Positions 4,119 to 32,143 of a stretch of 33,364 nt of DNA are shown here, piece by piece. The position numbers were made by a program, and so were the translations under genes. This DNA comes from Saprospiraceae bacterium (lineage in GTDB: Bacteria; Bacteroidota; Bacteroidia; Chitinophagales; Saprospiraceae). The first letter of the stretch is position 1. Every line of letters begins with the position of its first letter. The stretch lies in assembly GCA_026993525.1 (NCBI GenBank), contig JALWSS010000229.1, positions 1-33,364 on the forward strand, written 5' to 3'. Below the pieces are notes generated by a model. The model was not told where the DNA came from. It ran no database searches and saw only the letters and a program-made list of their open reading frames with translations.

Positions 4119-4224
4119 GTCGGACAGAGTCCGACAAGATATGGTCCCGGACGGAGTCCGGAACCAGCGTGGTTGCTGGCGCCGGACTCCGTCCGGTGCC
4201 TCATCCAGCCGGACTCCGTCCGGC
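4119..4224. repeat. Four copies of a CCGGAC palindrome in two orientations
   Basis: Four hairpins of one family occur within about 105 bp: GTCGGACAGAGTCCGAC (4119-4135), CCGGACGGAGTCCGG (4147-4161), CCGGACTCCGTCCGG (4182-4196) and GCCGGACTCCGTCCGGC (4208-4224). The second is inverted relative to the third and fourth. They sit in the 361-bp gap between the first permease and the VOC gene. The gap is framed by direct repeats of GAGGATTTGAGGAACTGA (about 4037 and 4290). No gene is visible in it. Confidence 0.75.
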
Positions 4225-4914: not shown

Positions 4915-6039
4915 ATGCGCACCGTACTGCTGCTCATACAAAAAGAATTCTTGCAGGTCTTTCGGAACAAGGCCATGTTGCCCATTTTGCTGGTGGTGCC
5001 CATTGTGCAGTTGATCATCCTGTCTTTTGCGGCCACGCACGACATCAAAAACATCTCGCTGGTGCTGGCCGACTACGACCAGTCGGCCACCAGCCGGCTG
5101 CTGGTTGACAAGCTGACGGCCTCCGGTTATTTCCGCCTGGCAGCTGTAGTGAAAAGCGACGATGCCCTTTTCGAAGAAATACAGCGCGGCCGTGCCGACC
5201 TGGCGCTGACCATCCCGGCGGGCTTCGAACGCAGCATTTTCCGAAGAGAACCTGCTGCCATTCAAGTGCTCGTCAATGCCATCAACGGGCAGAAGGCCGG
5301 GCTGGCAGCCAGCTATGCCGGCGAGGTGTTCCAGTCGTTGCAGGCCGAACTGGGCAGCCGCATCGCCGTGAAAACCCGGACGCTGAACGCCTCCCCCCGC
5401 ATTGAAACTACGCACAGCTACTGGTACAATCCGGAACTGGACTACAAGACCTTTATGGTGCCGGGCATCCTGGGCGAGTTGGTGGCCATGCTGGTGCTGG
5501 TACTCAGCGCCATGAACGTGGTTCGTGAAAAAGAAATCGGCACCATCGAGCAGATCAACGTGACGCCCATCCGCAAATGGCAGTTCATCGCCGGCAAGTT
5601 GCTGCCCTTCCTGTTCATCGGGCTTTTCGACCTGGCGCTGGGGCTCACGGTGGGCAAGCTGCTGTTCGACATTCCGATGGTGGGCAGCCTGTGGCTGGTG
5701 TTCGCCTATTGCGTGGTGAACATCTTTTGCGTGCTGGGCATCGGCTTTTTCATCTCCAATTTTGCCGACACCCAACAGCAGGCCATGTTCATCGCCTGGT
5801 TTTTTATGGTCATTTTCATCCTGATGTCGGGGCTGTTTACCCCCATCGAGAGCATGCCCGATTGGGCACAGGCCATGACGGTGCCCAACCCCATCGCCCA
5901 TTTCGTCACCGTCATGCGGCAGGTGCTGCTCAAGGGCAGTTCCTTTTCCGATGTAGCCTGGAACTTCTACGTCACCCTCGGCCTGGGCCTTCTCATGAAC
6001 ACCCTGGCTGTGATTACTTACCGGAAGCGGGTGGGGTAG
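4915..6039 (+). CDS. ABC-2 type permease, YbhR-like
   Basis: 374-residue integral membrane protein. It starts MRTVLLLIQKEFLQVFRNKA, then has a first membrane segment, an extracytoplasmic domain, and five membrane segments from MVPGILGELVAMLVLVLS. The family motif VREKEIGTIEQINVTPI follows the second segment. It is the second permease of the exporter; two non-identical permeases with two ATPase domains is the YbhFSR arrangement. The ATG at 4915 immediately follows the CATAATCC repeat tract, with no Shine-Dalgarno sequence. Confidence 0.9.
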   Translation: MRTVLLLIQKEFLQVFRNKAMLPILLVVPIVQLIILSFAATHDIKNISLVLADYDQSATSRLLVDKLTASGYFRLAAVVKSDDALFEEIQRGRADLALTIPAGFERSIFRREPAAIQVLVNAINGQKAGLAASYAGEVFQSLQAELGSRIAVKTRTLNASPRIETTHSYWYNPELDYKTFMVPGILGELVAMLVLVLSAMNVVREKEIGTIEQINVTPIRKWQFIAGKLLPFLFIGLFDLALGLTVGKLLFDIPMVGSLWLVFAYCVVNIFCVLGIGFFISNFADTQQQAMFIAWFFMVIFILMSGLFTPIESMPDWAQAMTVPNPIAHFVTVMRQVLLKGSSFSDVAWNFYVTLGLGLLMNTLAVITYRKRVG

Positions 6040-6096
6040 GGGAGCTCTTCTTGCTACTCTTTGGTTTATTTCTTTCTCAGCATTCCCAGTCCCTTT

Positions 6097-6104
6097 TATA
6101 TTTG
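6097..6104 (+). promoter_or_regulatory. -7 element (TATATTTG) of the tRNA-Arg locus
   Basis: TATATTTG matches the Bacteroidota -7 consensus TAnnTTTG and lies 15 bases upstream of the first tRNA-like sequence. I see no clear -33 TTTG. The first sequence it drives is a broken tRNA 5' half; the intact tRNA is about 350 bp downstream. Confidence 0.6.
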
Positions 6105-6118
6105 CACCCGTTATTACC

Positions 6119-6184
6119 GGCCCCATAGTTCAAGGGATACCTGCCTTGTCGGCAGACAGGGAATAGAGGTTTCCTAAACTTTAG
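6119..6184 (+). pseudogene. tRNA-Arg(CCT) 5' half with D-loop insert, 3' half missing
   Basis: The sequence matches the intact tRNA at 6452 through acceptor 5' strand, D-arm and anticodon arm (TTTCCTAAAC), then departs after TTAG. The T-arm and acceptor 3' strand are absent. A 21-bp palindromic insert (CCTGCC...CAGACAGG) interrupts the D-loop after GGGATA. A degenerate GIY-YIG frame follows directly. It is placed where a promoter would drive it, so this was probably the ancestral tRNA position. Confidence 0.75.
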
Positions 6185-6196
6185 CCATGAAGACCA

Positions 6197-6478
6197 AAGA
6201 GTGAGCAGCAATCATATACCGTTTATGCACTCGAAAGCGAGATTAGTGGTATGCTCTAAATTGGATTTACCGAGGATGTTACTCGTCGTTTACGAGAACA
6301 TAATGCTGGAAAGTCTAAGTTCACCAAAGGCCACCGGCCCTGGAAACTGATTTACACTAAAGTGGTCATCGGCCGCGACGAGACCAGAAATAGAGAGAAA
6401 TATCTCAAAACCAGTTCTGGTAAAAGGTGGCTGAAGAAAATATTGAAAGACGGCCCCATAGTTCAAGGGATAGAATAG
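6197..6478 (+). pseudogene. Decayed GIY-YIG nuclease gene
   Basis: This frame aligns without gaps to the nuclease at 6671. Two lesions are visible. The start ATG is AAG (6197-6199), and the codon for the Tyr of the YIG motif is TAA (6257-6259, where intact copies have TAT, giving ML*IGFTEDV). The rest stays open (RRLREHNAGKSKFTKG, REKYLKTSSGKRWLKK) and runs into the downstream tRNA. The lack of frameshifts suggests recent inactivation. Confidence 0.8.
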
Positions 6479-6523
6479 AGGTTTCCTAAACCTTAGATCC
6501 AGGTTCGAGTCCTGGTGGGGCTA
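6452..6523 (+). tRNA. tRNA-Arg, anticodon CCT (intact)
   Basis: A full cloverleaf can be folded: acceptor GGCCCCA/TGGGGCT with one G-U, D-stem GTTC/GAAT, anticodon stem GAGGT/ACCTT with loop TTCCTAA (anticodon CCT, reading AGG), T-stem CCAGG/CCTGG with loop TTCGAGT, and discriminator A. CCA is not encoded. It is the only uninterrupted copy of four tRNA-Arg(CCT)-like sequences here. It is followed after five bases by a terminator hairpin. Confidence 0.93.
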
Positions 6524-6528
6524 CTTGG

Positions 6529-6554
6529 GCCTGGCTGCAAGCTTGCAGCCAGGC
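6529..6554 (+). terminator. Perfect hairpin after intact tRNA-Arg
   Basis: A 26-base perfect palindrome (GCCTGGCTGCAAG and its complement) is followed by TTTGTTATT. It probably ends the tRNA transcript, which would separate the tRNA from the nuclease gene downstream. Confidence 0.75.
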
Positions 6555-6670
6555 TTTGTTATTGGAGGTTATTGGAGGGTTTTTCAAAGGTTTTAAGGGG
6601 GGTATTAAAGTATTTTTGGGCATTGAGAGATATTTAAAGCTCCAGCAATTGACCAATGCCAAGAAGGTTT

Positions 6671-6934
6671 ATGAGTGAAGAGAAGTCATATACTGTTTAT
6701 GCACTAGAAAGTGAGAAGAATGGTATGCTTTATATTGGATTTACGGAAGATGTTGATCGTCGTTTGCGTGAACACAATGCAGGAAAATCCAAGTTTACCA
6801 AGGGATACAGGCCCTGGAAGTTGGTGTACACTGAAGTGATATATACTCGTGAAGAAGCCAGAAGGCGGGAAAAATATTTAAAAAGTACCACAGGTAAGAG
6901 GTGGCTGAAAACAAAATTAAATATAACCCCATAG
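6671..6934 (+). CDS. GIY-YIG nuclease family protein (copy 1)
   Basis: 87-residue single-domain nuclease of the small UvrC-N-like GIY-YIG family, which makes metal-dependent single-strand cuts in DNA. Visible motifs: TVY (GIY position) and YIG in LYIGFTEDV, the catalytic-site Arg in DRRLREHN, and Glu in TREEARRREKYLKS. Length matches stand-alone family members. I start at the ATG at 6671, since the domain begins within seven codons; the ATG at 6656 would add MPRRF. Its last codons and stop (ATAACCCCATAG) are formed by the 5' end of the next tRNA-like sequence. It lies between two tRNA-Arg(CCT) sequences inside a 543-bp tandem unit, suggesting a mobile or homing-type role, which is inference. 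Confidence 0.88.
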   Translation: MSEEKSYTVYALESEKNGMLYIGFTEDVDRRLREHNAGKSKFTKGYRPWKLVYTEVIYTREEARRREKYLKSTTGKRWLKTKLNITP

Positions 6935-7066
6935 TTCAAGGGATACCTGCCTGGCTCGGCAGACAGGGAATAGAGGTTTCCTAAACCTTAGATCCAGGTT
7001 CCCTGTCTGCCGCCAGCCAGGCAGGCTTGTCTGCCGCCAGCCAGGCAGGGAGTCCTGGTGGGGCTA
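6925..7066 (+). tRNA. tRNA-Arg(CCT)-like gene interrupted in D-loop and T-loop (copy 1)
   Basis: Every arm of the intact tRNA at 6452 is present, but two inserts break it. A 22-bp insert (6946-6967) lies in the D-loop after GGGATA. A 48-bp insert (7002-7049) lies in the T-loop between TTC and GAGT. The 48-bp insert is two tandem 24-mers, differing at one base, of the same palindrome in the opposite orientation. Removing both restores the tRNA except that the acceptor starts AA instead of GG, giving one mismatch. Anticodon arm is intact. Whether it is functional, processed or dead is open. Confidence 0.75.
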
Positions 7067-7071
7067 CTTGG

Positions 7072-7097
7072 GCCTGGCTGCAAGCTTGCAGCCAGGC
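7072..7097 (+). terminator. Perfect hairpin after interrupted tRNA (copy 1)
   Basis: Same 26-base palindrome as at 6529, followed by TTTGTTATT. Its CAGCCAGGC arm resembles part of the palindromes inserted in the tRNA loops. Confidence 0.7.
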
Positions 7098-7213
7098 TTT
7101 GTTATTGGAGGTTATTGGAGGGTTTTTCAAAGGTTTTAAGGGGGGTATTAAAGTATTTTTGGGCATTGAGAGATATTTAAAGCTCCAGCAATTGACCAAT
7201 GCCAAGAAGGTTT

Positions 7214-7477
7214 ATGAGTGAAGAGAAGTCATATACTGTTTATGCACTAGAAAGTGAGAAGAATGGTATGCTTTATATTGGATTTACGGAAGATGTTGAT
7301 CGTCGTTTGCGTGAACACAATGCAGGAAAATCCAAGTTTACCAAGGGATACAGGCCCTGGAAGTTGGTCTACACTGAAGTGATATATACCCGTGAAGAAG
7401 CCAGAAGGCGGGAAAAATATTTAAAAAGTACCACAGGTAAGAGGTGGCTGAAAACAAAATTAAATATAACCCCATAG
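7214..7477 (+). CDS. GIY-YIG nuclease family protein (copy 2)
   Basis: The protein is identical to the copy at 6671; only two silent DNA differences separate the genes (GTG/GTC and ACT/ACC). It has the same motifs (LYIGFTEDV, DRRLREHN, REEARRREKYLKS) and the same stop codon contributed by the following tRNA-like sequence. Two identical intact proteins beside a third, dead copy suggest recent duplication of the whole unit. An alternative start lies at 7199. Confidence 0.88.
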   Translation: MSEEKSYTVYALESEKNGMLYIGFTEDVDRRLREHNAGKSKFTKGYRPWKLVYTEVIYTREEARRREKYLKSTTGKRWLKTKLNITP

Positions 7478-7609
7478 TTCAAGGGATACCTGCCTGGCTC
7501 AGCAGACAGGGAATAGAGGTTTCCTAAACCTTAGATCCAGGTTCCCTGTCTGCCGCCAGCCAGGCAGGCTTGTCTGCCGCCAGCCAGGCAGGGAGTCCTG
7601 GTGGGGCTA
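7468..7609 (+). tRNA. tRNA-Arg(CCT)-like gene interrupted in D-loop and T-loop (copy 2)
   Basis: Same structure as the copy at 6925, exactly 543 bp downstream, with one base different in the D-loop insert (7501). Inserts are at 7489-7510 and 7545-7592. Anticodon CCT is preserved. A terminator hairpin follows at 7616. Confidence 0.75.
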
Positions 7610-7615
7610 CAAAAA

Positions 7616-7641
7616 GCCTGGCTGCAAGCTTGCAGCCAGGC
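7616..7641 (+). terminator. Perfect hairpin closing the tRNA/GIY-YIG array
   Basis: Third copy of the 26-base palindrome, followed by TTTGTTATT. After this point the unit decays into GGTTTTTT-rich sequence. Confidence 0.7.
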
Positions 7642-7644
7642 TTT

Positions 7645-7785
7645 GTTATTGGAGGTTGTTGGAGGGTTTTTCAAAGGTTTTTTTTGAGGTTGTTTGTAGG
7701 TTTTTTCCACGTCTTCGCCCGGGGGGGTTAAAGGAAACCTCCCCGAAAAACCTTCCAAAAAACCTGCAACAACCAATTAAAAAAC
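7645..7785. repeat. Long imperfect inverted repeat rich in GGTTTTTT/AAAAAACC
   Basis: The left arm (GGTTGTTTGTAGGTTTTTTC, from 7689) pairs imperfectly with the right arm (CCAAAAAACCTGCAACAACC, 7755-7774). The centre is a G-run/C-run stem at about 7721-7744. It occupies the gap after the tRNA array; 7786-7936 shows nothing I can assign. Similar AACCTCC/AAAAACC sequence precedes nifJ (about 15400-15510). Confidence 0.55.
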
Positions 7786-7936
7786 CTCATACTTAACATA
7801 AGATAGATTATTTACCTGCCATTTACCTGCCTGTTTTTTGTGCCAGAGGAGTTATAGTTCTCTGAAATACATTGGATTAGCTCAAAATGAATTAACTTGC
7901 AGGCGACCCAATGAAATTAATTAACCAGTTCGCACC

Positions 7937-8440
7937 ATGATGCATATCCTGACAAACAGCGTATGGGCGCTTTCTGTGTTGTTGGTGCTGCACCTTGCCG
8001 GGGAGGTCCGCAAAGGCACGGGCGTTGCGGAGCGCTATTGCAACAAAGAATACGCCTACTGTGTGCGCTACCCCGGATCGCTGTTTCCCCACAAACAACT
8101 TCTGCCTGACAGCAGTGGCATTGGCCTGCAACCCTACGACCGCTCAGCACTGGTAACGGTGCGGGGCGACCGCCAGGCGGCCGGAAAATCTCCACAGACT
8201 TATTTTGGGGAACAATTGCAAGCGCTGGCACCGCTACAGGACCGGATGACCATTCTGGACACCCTGTACGGCGACGATTATTACGAGGCGTATTTCACCT
8301 GGCAAACGGAGAGCATTTTTCACCAGGCCTTCTTTTTCGACGAGTATTGCGTCATAATGATTGCAAGGGTGCCCACCGACAGGCCCATGTTGCTGAAGCA
8401 AATCCGGCGGGAAGTGCAGCTCGAGTTTGAAGACCGCTGA
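7937..8440 (+). CDS. Secreted hypothetical protein
   Basis: 167 residues beginning with a signal peptide (MMHILTNSVWALSVLLVLHLAGEV), so probably exported. The mature part opens with YCNKEYAYCVRYPGSLF, a pattern I have seen in uncharacterised Bacteroidota secreted proteins with a CVxYP motif. There is no catalytic motif that I recognise. It ends three bases before the convergent ftsH stop. Start choice between two adjacent ATGs (7937, 7940) does not matter. Confidence 0.7.
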   Translation: MMHILTNSVWALSVLLVLHLAGEVRKGTGVAERYCNKEYAYCVRYPGSLFPHKQLLPDSSGIGLQPYDRSALVTVRGDRQAAGKSPQTYFGEQLQALAPLQDRMTILDTLYGDDYYEAYFTWQTESIFHQAFFFDEYCVIMIARVPTDRPMLLKQIRREVQLEFEDR

Positions 8441-21286: not shown

Positions 21287-21360
21287 TGAGGAATCGAGGA
21301 ATTGATCCCGACTTTCGTCGGGAGAGGAACCGAGGAATCGAGGAATTGAGGAATTGACGG
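21287..21360. repeat. 9-bp GAGGAATTG array with TCCCGAC hairpin
   Basis: GAGGAATCG/GAGGAATTG units surround a perfect hairpin TCCCGACTTTCGTCGGGA (21306-21323). The same hairpin within the same kind of array recurs at 33101-33118. It lies in the 452-bp gap 21011-21462, which also has a small hairpin ACCACCTATCCGGTGGT near 21385; I see no gene in that gap. Confidence 0.8.
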
Positions 21361-32040: not shown

Positions 32041-32143
32041 TCCCGAAATTCTTCGGGATTCGGGAGTCTCGGGATTTCCCTCTCACAGAGGCCACGGCGA
32101 ACACAGTAAAAAAACTCCGTGAGCTTTGTGGACTCTGTGTGAG
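32041..32143. repeat. Hairpin cluster in the gap before the sigma factor gene
   Basis: TCCCGAAATTCTTCGGGA (32041-32058) is a perfect 7-bp hairpin. The segment 32092-32143 begins CTCACAGAG and ends CTCTGTGTGAG, with further pairing inside. Both look like dispersed Bacteroidota intergenic elements. GGTTTGGAGG repeats lie at about 31950-31985. No gene is seen in 31809-32228. Confidence 0.55.

Follow-up and report, generated by a model that had tools for sequence, protein, structure and literature searches.

A tRNA-Arg array with GIY-YIG nuclease genes

A stretch of 33,364 nucleotides (nt) from a Saprospiraceae bacterium (contig JALWSS010000229.1; the whole stretch is called the window here) carries, at positions 6119-7641 of its forward strand, an array in which tRNA-Arg(CCT) sequences alternate with small genes for GIY-YIG nucleases. 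A preliminary description, made from the letters alone, had proposed this array, and all of its parts were located with ARAGORN, Rfam and Pfam: one intact tRNA-Arg(CCT), three broken copies of it, and three GIY-YIG genes, of which one is dead and two are intact with 92 amino acids (aa) each, matching PF01541 at an E value of 1e-19. The features are, in order:

6097-6104, + strand: TATATTTG, a promoter -7-like motif (TAnnTTTG) ahead of the first tRNA copy
6119-6139, + strand: nt 1-21 of tRNA-Arg(CCT), the 5' copy, a 100% match to the intact tRNA
6140-6160, + strand: hairpin of 21 nt inserted in the 5' copy at the edge of the D-loop
6161-6184, + strand: nt 22-45 of tRNA-Arg(CCT), the end of the 5' copy, with one mismatch
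6185-6447, + strand: dead GIY-YIG gene with one in-frame TAA within the domain (Pfam match 6215-6424)
6452-6524, + strand: intact tRNA-Arg(CCT), the sole one by DNA similarity in the draft genome
6529-6554, + strand: 26-bp palindrome 3' of the intact tRNA, followed by T-rich DNA, terminator-like
6656-6934, + strand: GIY-YIG nuclease of 92 aa that stops at a TAG (6932-6934) formed by nt 8-10 of the following tRNA copy
6927-7067, + strand: nt 3-73 of a tRNA-Arg(CCT) copy, with a 22-nt hairpin inserted between nt 21 and 22 (6946-6967) and a double 24-nt hairpin between nt 55 and 56 (7002-7049)
7072-7097 and 7616-7641: repeats of the 26-bp palindrome
7199-7477, + strand: second GIY-YIG nuclease, 92 aa, the same protein as the first, ending at a TAG (7475-7477) that lies within the tRNA copy after it
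7470-7610, + strand: third broken tRNA-Arg(CCT) copy, nt 3-73, with hairpins between nt 21 and 22 and between nt 55 and 56 (7489-7510 and 7545-7592)

The single intact tRNA scores 63.4 bits against the Rfam tRNA model, and ARAGORN found no other tRNA in the window. A DNA search of the draft genome for a second tRNA-Arg(CCT) found none; the next match, on contig 160, is a tRNA-Arg(CCG). The intact gene is contiguous, and no Rfam intron family matched over 6000-8000 at E values up to 1. Weak Rfam matches at such loci (microRNA, small nucleolar RNA and small RNA families) fell under their gathering scores and were discarded. The TAnnTTTG motif, which we take to be the Bacteroidota -7 box, does not occur within 120 nt upstream of the intact tRNA of the window. 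The two 543-bp units starting at 6507, which had been called almost identical, agree at 540 of 543 positions, with three differences. The inserts had been reported as interruptions; their hairpin nature, the end of the nuclease genes inside tRNA copies and the phylum-wide family described below are additions to that first account.

Directly 3' of the array, at 7640-7790, lie low-complexity GGTTnTTGGAGG-like repeats with inverted copies, and AACCTCC repeats near a tRNA-Met locus of the same genome (L004, below) resemble them.

The nuclease

The AlphaFold2 model of the 92-aa nuclease is one compact domain with a predicted local distance difference test (pLDDT) score of 90.6, and it has no separate DNA-binding region beyond the catalytic domain. 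Five residues (Y15, Y26, G28, R36 and E72) are invariant in 26 nuclease sequences. The nearest solved structures are the UPF0213 protein BH0048 and Slx1, and the catalytic domains of UvrC and I-TevI come later with weak scores. The match to 1zg2 has a profile E value of 2e-15, and 1zg2 also gives the best Foldseek match, with an E value of 1.8e-4.

Small nuclease genes are linked to tRNAs across genomes

The window genome holds only two other short GIY-YIG genes, and both are tRNA-linked. One (L004) has a tRNA-Met(CAT) as its neighbour, and the tRNA-Met pieces there are interrupted by TCCGCCCAACGGCGGA; the other (L003) has tRNA-Asp(GTC)-like pieces on both sides, interrupted by TCCCGAGTACTCGGGA. 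The longer GIY-YIG frames of that genome (655, 494 and 251 aa) have no adjacent tRNA by ARAGORN.

The window genome was then taken together with 39 relatives (40 genomes), in which 71 small GIY-YIG genes were counted among the matches listed; this set excludes one tandem neighbour (on contig 4 of G019) and roughly a dozen matches that were short, partial or of odd length. Genes scoring at least 60 bits against a profile of tRNA-linked proteins were called subfamily C, and because that profile was built from tRNA-linked proteins, linkage was tested on Pfam hits as well. Forty-nine of the genes among the matches listed belong to subfamily C: within 600 bp, 36 have an intact tRNA, 9 a tRNA fragment and 4 neither. 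Below 60 bits, 17 of the 22 small genes among the matches listed are without a tRNA, and the five that are tRNA-adjacent are the dead copy of the window, the truncated genes L080 and L081, and two copies at a tRNA-Asp locus (L082). A tRNA or fragment was found within 600 bp of 0 of 27 control genes (uvrC and GIY-YIG genes of ~470 aa), themselves a selection from the longer genes.

The same picture holds further afield. For the best 80 of 545 confirmed loci in named genomes, an intact tRNA lies within 600 bp at 74 and a tRNA or fragment at 79, counts that did not change when a hairpin-containing ARAGORN pseudo-tRNA was excluded from the library for recounting; at a control distance of 1.5-2.7 kb a hit was found for 2 of 80. 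The single locus without a tRNA piece (L208) comes from a Nomurabacteria bin. In a sample of Bacteroidota, the subfamily profile matched (E <=0.001) in 200 of 296 genomes, with up to 18 matches per genome, a count that takes in weak matches up to E 1e-3. The 28 best loci of this sample have an intact tRNA in 25 cases and a tRNA or fragment in all 28. Among 246 copies scoring at least 45 bits, 186 have an intact tRNA on the same strand within 500 bp and two have one on the opposite strand.

In this lineage of ~90-aa GIY-YIG nucleases the gene is linked to a tRNA gene, almost always in the same orientation, and further, broken copies of that tRNA accompany it. Chance is excluded as the source of this association, since it recurs in many unrelated genomes. 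The preliminary description had asked whether related genomes carry GIY-YIG genes next to tRNAs, and the association was found both in relatives and in the phylum sample. Carriers, by record title, include flavobacteria, Cyclobacteriaceae, Pedobacter, Chitinophagaceae and Bacteroidales, together with a few bins of Patescibacteria, Chlorobiota, Ignavibacteria and Stahlbacteria, for which binning errors are possible, chiefly on short contigs. Winogradskyella aurantia, Pedobacter cryotolerans and Litoribacter ruber are examples of cultured carriers. Many of the genomes are metagenome-assembled, and some loci were entered under two names (L052 and L134, for example, are the same place).

Like cassettes were seen in Patescibacteria bins beside tRNA-Asn, tRNA-Phe and tRNA-Leu (L187, L207 and L210), which suggests either transfer between phyla or binning errors. 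At another locus (L147), ARAGORN called a hairpin-interrupted tRNA copy 'tRNA-???ggca', with its anticodon undefined; calls of this kind may pollute tRNA annotation.

Two layouts of nuclease and tRNA

Layouts, stop codons, promoters, breakpoints and isotypes were counted on 140 loci selected for an intact same-strand tRNA within 500 bp. At 59 of them the nuclease comes first and is followed by the intact tRNA, usually with a broken copy upstream (layout i). At 72 the intact tRNA comes first, a median of 52 nt ahead of the nuclease domain (layout ii), and the remaining 9 are mixed.

In layout i the nuclease stop lies within the intact tRNA at 40 of 59 loci, as a TAG at nt 8-10 in 24 and a TAG at nt 21-23 in 11. 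Both live nucleases of the window likewise stop inside tRNA copies, there the interrupted ones. Since one random frame in three would run into the TAG at nt 8-10, what is telling is that these nucleases lack any stop of their own ahead of the tRNA.

The TAnnTTTG motif occurs within 120 nt upstream of the intact tRNA at 30 of 38 naked loci (mostly tRNA-Arg) and 36 of 71 layout-ii loci, vs 3 of 59 in layout i, where it is found within 350 nt upstream of the first nuclease in 38 of 54. Because the motif lies ahead of the nuclease and rarely ahead of the tRNA, the layout-i tRNA would most simply be transcribed through the nuclease gene from an upstream promoter.

Occupied and empty tRNA-Arg sites

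Orthologous tRNA sites occur with and without the cassette. A DNA-similarity search in the genus of the window gave 15 tRNA-Arg loci from 13 of 14 genomes (13 CCT and two CCG), and the cassette is present at 5 of the 15. At eight of the genus loci the same gene, of about 290 aa, lies upstream; two are occupied, one in layout i (L278) and one in layout ii (L283), and six are empty. In other genera of the family, the subfamily was found at 0 of 29 tRNA-Arg-seeded loci (24 of them CCT), a 22-bit match on the opposite strand at one of these (L242) not being counted as a cassette.

Read base by base, L283 consists of an intact tRNA, ~20 nt like the native 3' flank, the nuclease, nt 19-75 of the tRNA carrying a T-loop hairpin, and then the native 3' flank with its terminator. 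L278 and L284 have the reverse arrangement, in which tRNA nt 1-55 or 1-54, ending in the T-loop and bearing a D-loop hairpin, precede the nuclease (two nucleases in L278) and an intact tRNA with its native flank. These readings place the element inside the tRNA gene, with one full copy left.

tRNA isotype and hairpins along the nuclease tree

The nuclease lineage tracks tRNA isotype. With one protein for each of the 140 loci, the tree requires 38 isotype changes vs a mean of 77 for shuffled labels (lowest 72 of 200), and 52 anticodon changes vs 100 (lowest 94). The tree has few columns and many forks without resolution, and the sequences are related, so that the shuffles are not strict probabilities. 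With 38 changes against a shuffled mean of 77, switching of isotype is frequent, yet far from random.

Inside the tRNA copies, 97 insertions were found at 81 loci, and 80 of them pass a hairpin filter, which was also passed by 428 of 1,940 shuffled inserts. The 52 clean insertions fall in the D-loop (30), T-loop (6), anticodon loop (4), junctions (4) and stems (8), and 44 of them touch an unpaired base vs 30.9 expected. Clean insertions of the CCTG type stand directly before GA in 33 of 41 cases, as in GGATA/GA and GGTTC/GA (the slash marks the break).

The hairpin family also follows the nuclease tree, with 4 changes vs 15.4 when shuffled (lowest 12 of 200) over 57 loci; this comparison used the hairpins of the linked tRNA only, and 13 of 70 loci with unclassified hairpins were dropped. 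The tRNA-Met loci can be sorted in this way: five have Met-clade nucleases and TCC hairpins, three have Arg-side nucleases and CCTG hairpins, and two are unclassified.

One alternative is that the gene is a hitchhiker, its nuclease doing an unrelated job such as the repair of branched DNA, and that it settles beside tRNA promoters as a safe harbour by occasional recombination. The Slx1/UPF0213-like fold would suit such a job, and ordinary recombination could yield tandem arrays. Yet the sub-threshold small GIY-YIG genes of the same genomes are mostly unlinked (17 of 22, among the matches listed, have no tRNA), and the nuclease tree is followed by tRNA isotype as well as by hairpin family, which leaves this explanation rather improbable.

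The hairpins have a life outside the arrays. One exact 20-bp palindrome stands at the identical D-loop site in tRNA-Arg and tRNA-Phe copies of distant taxa, one carrier being a short Patescibacteria contig. This palindrome is present in 40 of 296 genomes, and the nuclease profile matches 39 of those 40 vs 161 of the 256 others (Fisher p 2e-6, with kinship ignored and the counts made by eye). The idea that the palindromes are private to tRNA arrays was refuted, as they are dispersed, with 36 and 17 sites for two patterns in one genome (G000). A preference of the palindromes for any hairpin loop is not claimed: 30 dispersed sites gave a stem score of 5.48 vs 4.90 permuted, the highest of 500 permutations being 5.90.

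Other palindromes were noted along the way. In the genus of the window, dispersed CCTGCC..GGCAGG (L302-L341) and TCCGCC..GGCGGA (L342-L371) palindromes often have short flanking direct repeats. Within the window, TCCCGA..TCGGGA palindromes at 21306-21323 and 32041-32058 are of the type seen as hairpins at the tRNA-Asp locus L003, and two copies of the palindrome CCGGACTCCGTCCGG lie between two genes at 4182-4223, with more imperfect copies nearby, as a further short palindrome family of the genome.

Spread of the palindromes by the nuclease is put forward as a hypothesis only, because the same palindromes occur away from tRNAs. Each nuclease clade might own a cognate hairpin: a minimal, structure-guided GIY-YIG enzyme would recognise folded tRNA genes or palindromes, open their loops and place its own palindrome there. 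Nuclease and hairpin might then form a two-part mobile system that parasitises tRNA genes and seeds palindromes genome-wide. We regard this extension, in both its parts, as a tentative idea with perhaps a modest chance of being right.

Array growth, selection and age

The window belongs to a draft assembly in 230 contigs, and several loci of this kind are found at the ends of contigs, as might be expected if the arrays were an artefact of assembly or of chance. Against this, arrays are present in genomes of one to five contigs and recur in many taxa. The seven other genomes with tandem arrays comprise five of one contig and two of three and five contigs, with contigs >3 Mb, and a tandem-repeat finder detected repeats at all 12 comparable array loci in them, the periods being 306-450 bp and the match 92-100%. 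As tandem arrays recur in genomes of so few contigs, assembly error is in general an unlikely explanation, and an artefact of either kind has next to no probability.

An array could also serve tRNA dosage, with the nuclease driving amplification of the tRNA; SegB has this effect on the tRNA-Tyr of phage T6, where both the neighbourhood and the tandem units are of the same kind. What multiplies here is instead the nuclease copies and the broken tRNAs: in 30 of 32 arrays with at least two nuclease copies, the linked tRNA is present in just one intact copy (the loci had been selected for at least one). A dosage function is very improbable on these counts.

The nuclease has been kept functional by purifying selection, since the median ratio of nonsynonymous to synonymous substitution rates (dN/dS) is 0.14 in the 31 usable of 57 nuclease pairs, with 30 below 0.5; 26 pairs were dropped for saturation or error, and the pairs are not all independent. 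Some cassettes are old, as at L182 and L186, whose tRNA site and flanks are common to two genera. Two other loci, the close relatives L167 and L176, have flanks ~94% identical, and L167 has ~466 bp of extra hairpin-bearing tRNA pieces, part of which is N.

In L167 these are tandem hairpin-bearing tRNA-Arg pieces at 2450-2890, ahead of the intact tRNA and absent from L176; the readable part contains no nuclease, and a run of N lies inside.

Strong purifying selection would also be expected if nuclease and altered tRNAs formed a functional pair, in which the nuclease acts on tRNA or tRNA-like RNA (in maturation, stress or phage defence) and the hairpin copies are decoys or regulators. The match of nuclease clade to isotype and the retention of one site across genera fit such a pair, and the concentration of hairpins at loops, given above, may mean that an RNA fold is kept. 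Such a pair is nevertheless unlikely: the nearest folds are DNA nucleases, the cassette is missing from all 29 other tRNA-Arg loci sampled in the family, the copies are often truncated or lack an arm, and the isotype switches ~38 times on the tree.

A probable homing-type cassette specialised on tRNA genes

An explanation has to cover the observed association, specificity, patchiness and array growth. The most economical one, which we hold to be probable though well short of certain, is a selfish cassette of the homing type, specialised on tRNA genes, which would cut one of these genes and be copied into it by repair. The preliminary description had raised a homing or tRNA-targeted selfish cassette as one option. 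Its interpretation is upheld in part, this option agreeing with the specific tRNA linkage, patchy orthologous sites, tandem growth and purifying selection.

The nuclease would cut the tRNA gene as DNA in its loop segments (TA/GA in the D-loop, TTC/GA in the T-loop, and the anticodon loop), and repair by recombination with a cassette-bearing copy would insert the nuclease with part of a tRNA. One full tRNA would be rebuilt from parts of element and host, and a broken remnant would stay on the other side of the nuclease. In the nuclease-first layout the nuclease mostly runs into the tRNA 5' end, and because the rebuilt tRNA would rely on the promoter ahead of the nuclease, an essential gene and the cassette would share one transcript. 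The hairpins, lying where breaks are presumed, would protect the broken copies from cutting or reduce the recombining-out of the cassette. In the window, an older insertion, now dead, would lie ahead of the intact tRNA, and a later one would have expanded behind it into two near-identical units, the array growing by recombination.

Several points weigh against a homing-type cassette. The intact tRNA stands uninterrupted beside a nuclease, so the target would need protection or cutting would have to be rare. Cutting and movement are inferred, and neither was observed. Two loci from two genera (L182 and L186) share tRNA site and flanks, and this conservation implies that cassette turnover is slower than active homing suggests. 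Breakpoints lie only partly in the D, anticodon and T loops: these loops hold 58 of the 105 ends on the upstream side and 37 of the 87 on the downstream side, and 15 of those 87 are at TTC/GA or TTCG/A (counted by eye). Four of the 49 subfamily-C genes among the matches listed have no tRNA or fragment nearby, three of them (L017, L054 and L077) near contig ends. The protein consists of a catalytic domain alone, its closest matches are UPF0213 and the structure-specific nuclease Slx1 and not sequence-specific homing enzymes, and its likeness to SegB is weak (hhalign probability 34% over 62 aligned columns).

If a selfish cassette is the right reading, this would be a very common element of bacterial chromosomes, so far undescribed within the literature searched, that lives on the cell's most conserved genes yet leaves a working copy. 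It would account for the decayed, hairpin-filled neighbours of some tRNA genes. It would also provide a cellular counterpart of phage SegB and a family of small nucleases in which clade and tRNA isotype can be paired. Two questions could then be tested directly: by what means a catalytic domain of 90 aa locates a single tRNA gene, and by what route short palindromes get into genes.

Comparison with known systems

In sequence and fold the nuclease is most like UPF0213 and Slx1, small GIY-YIG domains that give its best matches (1zg2, 1ywl and Slx1). Slx1 requires a partner. Three UPF0213-like genes (L016, L018 and L043, so judged by eye and not by search) differ in having no tRNA nearby. Nuclease-assisted invasion of tRNA genes is known from group I introns with homing endonucleases, whereas no intron RNA is among the Rfam hits at the window locus and the working tRNA is uninterrupted. 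As in REP/REPIN-RAYT systems, a nuclease gene stands beside short palindromes that are found elsewhere in the genome too. RAYT transposases are HUH enzymes, whereas the protein gene of this unit is GIY-YIG, and mobilisation of palindromes by a GIY-YIG nuclease is hypothetical.

A phage origin of the clade was considered and rejected, as only 4 of 44 pattern matches in IMG/VR encode a relative; the 18 phage records that match the window protein are all <60% identical to it.

The closest parallel is SegB of phages T4 and T6, a free-standing GIY-YIG homing endonuclease encoded on one strand, outside any intron and packed between tRNA genes; in T4, segB lies 5 nt ahead of tRNA-Arg and 41 nt past tRNA-Ile. 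A 2010 review (PMC2988022) assigns segB to a tRNA intergenic site. Passages of a 2026 study (PMC13096335) state that in T6 the tandem growth of a 718-bp unit, consisting of tRNA-Tyr and a truncated segB, requires SegB nuclease activity, and ascribe this growth to recombination of the tRNA 5' end with the segB 3' end. They also report an enrichment of segB close to phage tRNAs, in survey passages that cover phages and archaeal viruses only, and give the SegB motif as RAWTSGAAC. By our own reading this is the reverse complement of GTTCSAWTY, and would match the T-loop consensus. With SegB so placed, the claim that no system with such a layout had been described needs narrowing; it holds for a chromosomal family, in that the matches listed from the open-licence literature, judged by title and the start of the abstract, describe no tRNA-linked GIY-YIG genes in bacterial chromosomes.

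The cassette nuclease shares with SegB-type genes a GIY-YIG core with Tyr, Arg and Glu, a stand-alone open reading frame without intron or intein, and patchy orthologous sites. SegB is phage-borne and 221 aa long, whereas the chromosomal cassette is cellular and its 92 aa are the catalytic domain only; SegB amplifies an intact tRNA, whereas the cassette has broken, hairpin-bearing copies and one intact tRNA. Because SegB's DNA-binding region is lacking, the cassette is set apart from the SegB family: it would work like a SegB-type homing gene, yet it is a variant of that kind and not a member.

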